DNA of 36,019 nt from Nitrospirota bacterium. GTDB lineage: Bacteria; Nitrospirota; Thermodesulfovibrionia; Thermodesulfovibrionales; SM23-35. Of the stretch, positions 1-25,990 are shown in pieces. Location of the stretch: contig JACAEY010000015.1 in NCBI GenBank assembly GCA_013388605.1, positions 1 to 36,019 on the forward strand, in the 5' to 3' direction. The translations under genes and the position numbers were made by a program. Under the pieces are notes generated by a model. The model saw nothing but the letters and a program-made list of their open reading frames with translations, ran no database searches and was not told where the DNA came from. Positions within the stretch are counted from its first letter, which is position 1. Every line of letters begins with the position of its first letter.

Positions 1-122
1 CCAAAGATTATTAATAGTGATTAAAGTCAGGTGAAGGTTTAAACATAATTGGAGGTAGTTTATTTTGGTTCTAAAATCGGGTCTCATAACTCTTATATAG
101 AATATTTTGGACAGCAATGATT
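1..122 (-). mobile_element. MITE-like inverted-repeat element, copy 1 (cut by window start)
   Basis: Read on the minus strand, this segment matches the left half of the copies at 9384-9610 and 23345-23715. The shared order is a GCTGTCCAAAATATTCTATA end, a TATGAGACCCGATTTT block, ACCAAAATAAACTACC, then TATGTTTAAACC and GACTTTAAT. The element continues past the window edge, so its other end is not visible. Its outer end points toward the gene starting at 262, about 140 bp away. No coding sequence is seen in it. Confidence 0.7.
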
Positions 123-4260: not shown

Positions 4261-4336
4261 CATAGCTTTCCAAAATATTCTAAAATATTGCTGGATGCAG
4301 AAGAAACACAATAACGACACCTTATAAAATTAATCC
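4259..4336 (-). repeat. 78-bp dispersed repeat (family B), copy 1
   Basis: Read on the minus strand, this stretch is nearly identical to 20297-20374 over 78 bp. Shared blocks are GGATTAATTTTATAAGGTG, ATTGTGTTTCTT, GCATCCAG, ATATTTTAGAATAT and a TGGAMAGC end. The last part resembles the outer end of the larger element (TAGAATATTTTGGACAGC). The repeat ends at the mazG start codon. No reading frame of its own is evident. Confidence 0.8.
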
Positions 4337-4350
4337 AAATATTTATAAAT

Positions 4351-9368: not shown

Positions 9369-9383
9369 TAATTGCGTTACGTT

Positions 9384-9610
9384 ACCGCCAAGAATACTCT
9401 ATAGAATGTATGAGTCTCAATTTCCGAACCAAAATAAACTACCTTTTATTATGTTTAAACCCTTTTCTGACTTAAATTTCTTTCCAAAATTTATAACTGA
9501 GACCTTCACTTCGACTTAGGTCTCATTGAGATTATCCGTGATTTGCTTAGAAAATCGAGCCTTATACCTGCTTTTTTCATAGTATAAAGTATAATTTTGG
9601 ACATATGTGA
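9384..9610 (+). mobile_element. MITE-like inverted-repeat element, copy 2 (about 227 bp)
   Basis: Non-coding element matching copy 3 end to end, apart from an insert present only in copy 3. Imperfect terminal inverted repeats are visible: the left block GTATGAGTCTCAATTTCCGAA (9408-9428) mirrors TTAGAAAATCGAGCCTTATAC (9547-9567), and the outer ends contain CCAAGAATACTCTATA and TATAATTTTGGACA. An internal hairpin GAGACC/GGTCTC (9499-9504 and 9519-9524) is conserved in copy 3. No transposase is encoded. The right end stops about 30 bp before gspE and is rich in -10-like sequence (TATAAT at 9590-9595). Confidence 0.7.
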
Positions 9611-9639
9611 TTGTGTTATAATTTTTAAAGGAGTAATAC

Positions 9640-20134: not shown

Positions 20135-20296
20135 AAAGATGTATAATTAATCATACTTGTGCAAAATAAGAGACACACTATGGCTGGATACCTCATAAAC
20201 ACAATGAATCTACAGGATAATTGTATGGCAGACCCCTTTCTGTTAATGTATGATATCTGGATTACGCTCATATATTCTTTTAAGGAAGAATGATAT

Positions 20297-20374
20297 GGAT
20301 TAATTTTATAAGGTGCCGTCATTGTGTTTCTTTGGCATCCAGTCATATTTTAGAATATCCTGGACAGCAGCGAT
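20297..20374 (+). repeat. 78-bp dispersed repeat (family B), copy 2
   Basis: Same length and about 85-90% identical by eye to the minus-strand copy at 4336-4259. It sits between gspD and gatA, 43 bp before the gatA start. It is open in the gatA frame from a GTG at 20313, producing a spurious N-terminal extension ([12 protein letters not shown]) that mirrors the one in front of mazG (LCFFCIQQYFRI). Confidence 0.8.
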
Positions 20375-20417
20375 AATTAATCAATTTGCAAAATTATGGT
20401 CTTGGAGAAATATAAGA

Positions 20418-23296: not shown

Positions 23297-23344
23297 ATAA
23301 GGAATACCGTCTCTGTCCGCCTGAGTTAGATTATAATCGGCAAC

Positions 23345-23715
23345 ATTGCTGTCCAAAGTATTCTATATAAGTATGAGACCCGATTTTCGAACCAAAATAA
23401 ACTACCACTTATTATGTTTAAACCCGAATTAAGCAAGGCTTACTATAAAGCCTTGTAGCCGCAGGCTTTAGCCTGCGTTTTAAATCGCATAAAAGTGATT
23501 TAAAGTTGTATAAATTCACGCAACCTAAAGGTTGCGGCTATACCCTTGTGTAATACGGGTTAAACTTTTCTCTGACTTTAATATCTTCTCAAAACTTTTA
23601 GCTGAGACCTCTGCTTCGACTCCGGTCTCATCGAGGTTACCCGTGATTTTGCTTCTAAAATCGGTTCTCATACCTGTCTTTCTAAGAGCATGAAGTATTA
23701 TTTTGGACAGATGTG
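23345..23715 (+). mobile_element. MITE-like inverted-repeat element, copy 3 (about 371 bp, with insert)
   Basis: Fullest copy of the element. The outer ends are mirror images: GCTGTCCAAAGTATTC at the left and GAAGTATTATTTTGGACA at the right. Inner blocks GTATGAGACCCGATTTTCGAA (23371-23391) and TTCTAAAATCGGTTCTCATAC (23653-23673) are inverted copies with 19 of 21 positions matching. The internal GAGACC/GGTCTC hairpin (23604-23609 and 23624-23629) is shared with copy 2. Between TTTAAACCC and GGGTTAAAC lies an insert of about 130 bp, absent from copy 2, that holds two inverted REP hairpins. There is no transposase gene, so mobility would depend on an enzyme encoded elsewhere. Confidence 0.75.
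23455..23541. repeat. REP doublet (BIME-like) nested in element copy 3
   Basis: REP 1 (23455-23477, plus) is GTAG followed by the hairpin CGCAGGC-TTTA-GCCTGCG. REP 2 (23519-23541, minus) is CGCAACC-TAAA-GGTTGCG followed by GCTAT. In the same orientation they read TAGCCGCAGGCTTTAGCCTG and TAGCCGCAACCTTTAGGTTG: the stems differ by paired, compensating changes and the loop is the same. The GTAG head plus palindrome is the known REP form moved by REP-associated tyrosine transposases. No such transposase gene is in the window. Confidence 0.75.
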
Positions 23716-23717
23716 AA

Positions 23718-24007
23718 TCGTCAAGATAATTTATGTCTAATTAAAAAATTTGTTGGTTTAAGGTGTAATTTCGAGTAAAACATAGCAACCTCACATTACT
23801 TAGAAAGAGATTGCTTCACACCCTTTGGGTTTTTGCTATAACAAATAGTCATAGGATTTGTAAGATTTTTCGAGAAATATTAGGATTATATGTGTCTTGA
23901 TTTTATCTTATGTTTTTCATTAATCTTAAATGTCTACTGTTATTCTTAATTCGTTTTATTTTTACTCGTTACGAATTACTTATTAAGCATAAAGAGAAAA
24001 GACAACT
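23718..24007. other. Non-coding gap before tRNA-Ser with degenerate repeat
   Basis: No supported gene. Around 23793-23840 there is TAGCAACC, GAGATTGCTTCACACCC and GGTTTTTGCTA, a degraded inverted structure related to the GAGATTGCTTC repeats scattered through many genomes; a similar string on the minus strand lies at 29690-29680. The rest is very AT-rich and should contain the promoter of the tRNA gene, but I see no clear -35/-10 pair. Confidence 0.4.
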
Positions 24008-25935: not shown

Positions 25936-25967
25936 ACTCGAATTCCAAATCTTGGGTTATAAACCCT

Positions 25968-25990
25968 GTAGCCGCAGGCTTTAGCCTGCG
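25968..25990 (+). repeat. REP element downstream of dnaX
   Basis: GTAG at 25968-25971 is followed by the hairpin CGCAGGC (25973-25979), loop TTTA, GCCTGCG (25984-25990). It is identical to REP 1 at 23455-23477 over the whole motif. It lies 33 bp after the dnaX stop, a typical extragenic position, and could stabilise the 3' end of the message. Confidence 0.75.

Follow-up and report, generated by a model that had tools for sequence, protein, structure and literature searches.

The stretch of DNA analysed here (the window) is 36,019 nucleotides long and constitutes one entire contig (C122) of a draft host genome of 1.675 Mb in 156 contigs. Named MAGs with contigs that match genomes of the host's own family place the host in the order Thermodesulfovibrionales of the Nitrospirota. 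It contains three copies of a gene-less repeat with a consensus of 233 bp, termed element A, which have in common their ends, an inner inverted block and a GAGACC/GGTCTC hairpin, all of them features described in an earlier sequence-only reading. Copy 2 (9380–9609, forward strand, 230 bp) is older and diverged, and is flanked by ATTGCGTTA (9371–9379) and ATTGTGTTA (9610–9618), which are identical at eight of nine positions. Copy 3 (23344–23715, forward strand) measures 372 bp including a nested repeat and lies between AATCGGCAA (23335–23343) and AATCGTCAA (23716–23724), also identical at 8/9 positions. These 9-bp duplications correct the limits of the earlier reading (9384–9610 and 23345–23715), while its count of three copies stands. 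Copy 1 (1–119, reverse strand) had been placed at 1–122 as a truncated element; since the window is the whole contig, the copy is cut off by the contig start and is not itself a truncated element. No open reading frame fits within the 233-bp consensus, in agreement with the claim that no transposase is encoded.

In the orientation of the insertion sequence (IS) described below, element A consists of an IS 5′ end, a core and an IS 3′ end. Alignment, covariation and the score of covariance model R1 (149.7 bits) place the structured core of copy 2 at 9405–9569 (forward strand), with a closing stem (P1), a hairpin (P2; 9498–9525, forward strand; TGAGACC TTCACTTCGACTTA GGTCTCA) and a conserved 3′ link. 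The core of copy 1 matches R1 with 62.1 bits, its 3′ end being cut off. The sequence-only reading addressed neither the independent history of this inner block nor the cause of the greater length of copy 3, which is longer only because a second repeat (B) is nested at its TTTAAAC. Repeat B occupies approximately 23424–23559 (forward strand), has ends CCGAATTA..CAAGG and CCTTG..TAATACGGG, and contains two inverted GTAG-tagged palindromes. It is ∼147 bp long and stands alone at C116, C131, C85 (two), C98, C30 and C125; it is common elsewhere in the genome, with CCCGAATTACGCAAGG-type ends, and a partial copy is also present in the window at 25961–25990. Repeat B looks like a REP doublet, its palindromes resembling the known GTAG-tagged REP palindromes (PMC3733652), a likeness that concerns B and not element A.

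The window also contains a second family (D), which the earlier reading missed. Its complete copy (20152–20372, no strand assigned) has IS4Sa-type ends, a different interior with inner inverted arms (20179–20207 and 20319–20347), and a perfect 9-bp duplication, ATAATTAAT, at 20143–20151 and 20373–20381. A partial copy (4261–4345, no strand assigned) comprises a CATAGCTTTCCAAAATATTC end plus about 80 bp and is 87% identical over 76 nt to 20293–20368. The plan of family D, IS ends with its own inner inverted arms, parallels that of element A.

Copy number and insertion footprints

The abundance of element A was derived from sequence searches of the host genome. The copy 2 query matched 41 places and the copy 3 query 59, a figure that includes places with only the nested repeat. 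Counting the 12-base end CTGTCCAAAATA gave 78 occurrences, versus one for the reversed control. When merged, the element A places form 85 clusters, 40 of which lie within 130 bp of a contig edge; since two edges may represent one copy, we lower the estimate to a total of at least about 65. The high copy number predicted from the window is thereby borne out, and element A accounts for about 40 of the contig edges of this draft genome. The youngest copies are 96–98% identical to the consensus. Element A is also intergenic in a sample of 25 copies, except for one 90-residue open reading frame call that coincides with a copy; the repeat is thus neither rare nor confined to a gene or RNA. Searches of plasmids gave no match to element A.

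Insertion footprints provide the evidence for movement. Flanking 9-mers were compared at the consensus boundaries of 28 complete copies, among which L017 and L027 were read on both strands and so each count twice, and matches at seven or more positions were counted. A target duplication of exactly 9 bp was found in 17 of the 28, compared with 1.1 expected from shuffled flanks, while duplication lengths of 5–8 and 10–13 bp gave nothing above the null in the same copies. Derivatives without the core, of 57, 119, 129 and 145 bp, also exist in the host; all are single-copy and flanked by a perfect 9-bp duplication. Two loci, L005 (C46) and L029 (C112), have an identical left flank and different right flanks, reflecting either recombination between copies or assembly overlap.

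An IS with the ends of element A

An order-wide search for an IS4-family transposase that lies next to element A-type ends in reference genomes (see below) found this transposase in 26 of 176 genomes of the Thermodesulfovibrionales. One genome (G030) holds complete IS copies, of which L224 is 1,392 bp long, has ends CACATCTGTCCAAAATAA before the gene and CACTGCTGTCCAAAATAAT behind it, and is flanked by the 9-bp duplication ATTTAAAAT. The ends of element A equal those of the IS, CATTGCTGTCCAAAATA corresponding to the end behind the transposase gene and CACATCTGTCCAAAATA to the one in front. The G030 transposase matches NF033592 (IS4_1) with 279 bits against a cut-off of 115, as well as DDE_Tnp_1 and DUF4372, and its YREK residues are found in YkdRwqiEvffktiK. 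The IS4Sa subgroup is characterized by ends of the form CA------T, repeats of 8–10 bp and lengths of 1150–1750 bp (PMC2266710). Judged by its sequence, the partner is an IS4-family, IS4Sa-type IS because the ends, the size and the repeat length, together with the YREK motif, agree with the table in that paper, and this assignment supplies the named family to which the earlier reading could not match the element. The MITE reading itself is upheld by an element that is short and lacks a transposase, with terminal inverted repeats, 9-bp duplications, many intergenic copies and, as an autonomous relative, an IS with matching ends. Elsewhere in the order, full-length partners have terminal repeats that differ in part, and only one of those inspected has a clean 9-bp duplication.

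In a scan of reference genomes, the same 20-base ends were found around unrelated short interiors in Smithella, Acidobacteria and another Nitrospirae MAG, and in two cases the element end lies directly behind the C-terminus of an IS4-family transposase. A Persicobacter plasmid carries a complete IS with ends CAGTAGTGTCCAAA and duplication ACCTTAATT.

The transposase with matching ends that the sequence-only reading had proposed to look for is therefore present in a related genome; the host assembly yielded no IS4Sa transposase gene. A trace of the IS does occur in the host, where the alignment of 52 bases at the edge of contig C84 to the G030 and G133 copies extends well past the repeat that they share, and none of 2000 shuffles aligned equally well with the IS 5′ end. 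By this alignment, contig C84 begins inside an IS4Sa-type IS. Being repeats, the host's own IS copies probably collapsed during draft assembly and were lost from it.

Two other candidates for an autonomous partner were rejected. A 606-residue IS1634-like transposase on C96, the sole DDE_Tnp_1 match in the host, has its own, different ends, GTGTAGGCACAC. A fragment at the edges of C38, C47, C104, C116 and C156 is in fact a third repeat (C), AGTTGAGCGATT..AATCGCTCAATT, inserted in element A ends. An IS1634-like transposase gene (606 residues, ends GTGTAGGCACAC) at L076 (2300–4120) adjoins an element A copy. Repeat C, with ends AGTTGAGCGATT and AATCGCTCAATT and variable inner hairpins, is seen at L185 (4258–4433), L184 (1–118), L186 (1598–1750) and L187 (G003); it is inserted into element A ends at several contig edges and is also found in another genus.

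Structure, distribution and origin of the core

The inner core of element A is ∼165 bp long and consists of the 28-bp closing stem P1, the P2 hairpin and conserved loops. In an alignment of 33 cores from five genera (166 positions), the 28 pairs of P1 are 90.6% paired and 24 of them have changed on both sides; none of 500 shuffles reached the observed covariation and slid controls were far lower. The two sides of P2 change together in several lineages (GAGACC/GGTCTC, GAGGCT/AGCCTC, CTCGGC/GCCGAG). Among the unpaired parts, conservation is highest in the P2 loop (88%) and the 3′ link (90%), versus 78% for the P1 arms. At five loci in G007 and G017 (L096, L099, L111, L094 and L102) a CCCGAAAGGC..GCCTATTCGGG hairpin takes the place of the 3′ side of P2, in every case at an identical position.

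A covariance model search recovered the core from 29 of the 176 Thermodesulfovibrionales genomes, in three families and with many copies in some; it was absent outside the order among the 396 Nitrospirota genomes sampled, and viral contigs gave no match to the core pattern. IS ends are visible around the core in the host, in genus g8 and in some members of f1 and f12, and are not visible around the cores of family f2, genus g12 and genus g50. In a tree f2 is separate, and the IS-bearing lineages group with the other IS-less ones with moderate support; from this topology, gain or loss of the IS ends probably happened repeatedly. Within f2 some species have the core at a locus where their sisters lack it, so that it moved or was lost there. 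At such empty sites of cores without IS ends presence and absence are clear, and the intergenic stretches are too rearranged for a duplication to be read.

At sites shared by two species conservation is higher in the core than in the flanks (94% versus 82–88%, 99% versus 85–92% and 85% versus 75–80%); a site shared by G041 and G050, a pair with an IS end, gives 97% versus 88–94%. The core also lies inverted at two shared sites. At the murA site it has opposite orientations in G043 and G153, and at a second shared site its orientation in G043 differs from that in G150 and in a truncated G032 copy. In G011, two of about a dozen cores are inverted relative to a common flanking repeat. Opposite orientations in sister species were recorded at L302 (635–813) versus L272 (228–405) and at L303 versus L320, and of the inverted-core sites one is upstream of murA and the other beside the gene for a MinD-like ATPase.

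We consider it highly probable that an IS4-family (IS4Sa subgroup) transposase mobilizes element A, a MITE, in trans, and that the core is an older, order-level cassette whose stem is kept complementary by arm exchange. The IS4Sa transposase would bind the IS-type ends of element A, excise the 233-bp unit and insert it with a 9-bp stagger. The ∼165-bp core would be an older Thermodesulfovibrionales cassette that was bracketed by IS ends, or shed them, in different lineages. Exchange of the P1 arms at the DNA level most likely keeps the 28-bp stem complementary; we prefer this process since it would account for the inversion of the core as well as for arms that stay complementary while their sequence is left unconstrained. 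Arm exchange does not account for the conserved P2 and loops, and the latter point to a further function of the core, for transposition or for the host. More tentatively, the core may be an invertible DNA cassette, specific to the order and not described before (or else an RNA gene of the opposite strand), that has its own host or mobility function, predates the IS4Sa ends and was repeatedly bracketed by them.

A rather doubtful alternative is that the core is needed for transposition, the folded inner arms joining the two IS ends so that only copies with an intact stem amplify. The core-less derivatives are all different single copies, whereas full-length copies of 96–98% identity are numerous, and family D has a like plan of IS ends and inner arms. 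However, unrelated interiors are mobilized by these ends in other phyla, the IS itself is without the core, and in f2, g12 and g50 the core has persisted with no IS ends around it.

We regard it as unlikely that the core serves the host as a structured non-coding RNA or a cis-acting element of an mRNA and is merely spread by the IS ends. The strong covariation of P1, the double changes in P2, the conserved loops and the retention of the core in different genera at orthologous sites, where its conservation exceeds that of the flanks, are what such an RNA would show, and one copy is predicted to fold strongly (z −8.6). Yet copy 2 in the window is predicted to fold no better than shuffles (z −1.2), the core is inverted at shared sites, and the Rfam covariance models gave no match to it. 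Furthermore, G:U is not preferred among the deviations from P1 pairing on the modelled strand (22 G:U versus 36 A:C; 32 versus 85 in a wider set, in which the copies are not independent), and these counts are not those expected from selection on an RNA of that strand. The excess of A:C over G:U on the given strand might be a hint of an RNA transcribed from the opposite one. Nor is there a clear orientation bias relative to genes, the 25 host copies lying along (7), against (5), between divergent (9) or convergent (2) genes or at edges (2), and a terminator or 3′-UTR role was rejected on this ground.

We regard a coding origin of the core, as a relic or part of a protein gene, as very improbable, and as a general account it has already been refuted. 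In its favour, several copies have one open frame, and genus g8 has more variable third positions (p 0.024). Against it, third positions show no such excess when all copies are taken together (p 0.30) or within the host (p 0.98), stops frequently interrupt the frame and Pfam gave no match.

Comparison with known elements

The preferred reading, a trans-mobilized MITE with an older core, gives a clear bacterial MITE family in uncultured bacteria, with its driver identified to the subgroup. As the core of element A illustrates, the cargo of a MITE can predate its ends and be more strongly conserved than they are. In addition, strong base-pair covariation, which is usually taken as evidence for RNA, may arise in a DNA element with exchanging, inverting arms, a practical warning for covariation-based RNA discovery. 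We found no paper that joins MITEs with this host group or gives the end sequence in a relevant context.

ERIC and BOX repeats are short and dispersed with a conserved, foldable structure. Element A differs from them in sequence and host group, and in its IS4Sa ends and 9-bp duplications. It resembles IS4Sa elements (De Palmenaer 2008, PMC2266710) in its CA------T ends and 9-bp duplications and, through the 1,392-bp full element in a relative, in the YREK transposase of ∼400 residues; unlike them, element A is without a transposase and its interior is unrelated to the IS. Parallels in overall form are found in bacterial MITEs such as QMITE2 of Coxiella (PMC10969869), which are likewise shorter than 300 bp, AT-rich and intergenic, with terminal inverted repeats, repeats of 7–9 bp and an internal core that folds. 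In contrast to such MITEs, the core of element A can be traced through three families of one order, covaries and exists without the transposon ends.
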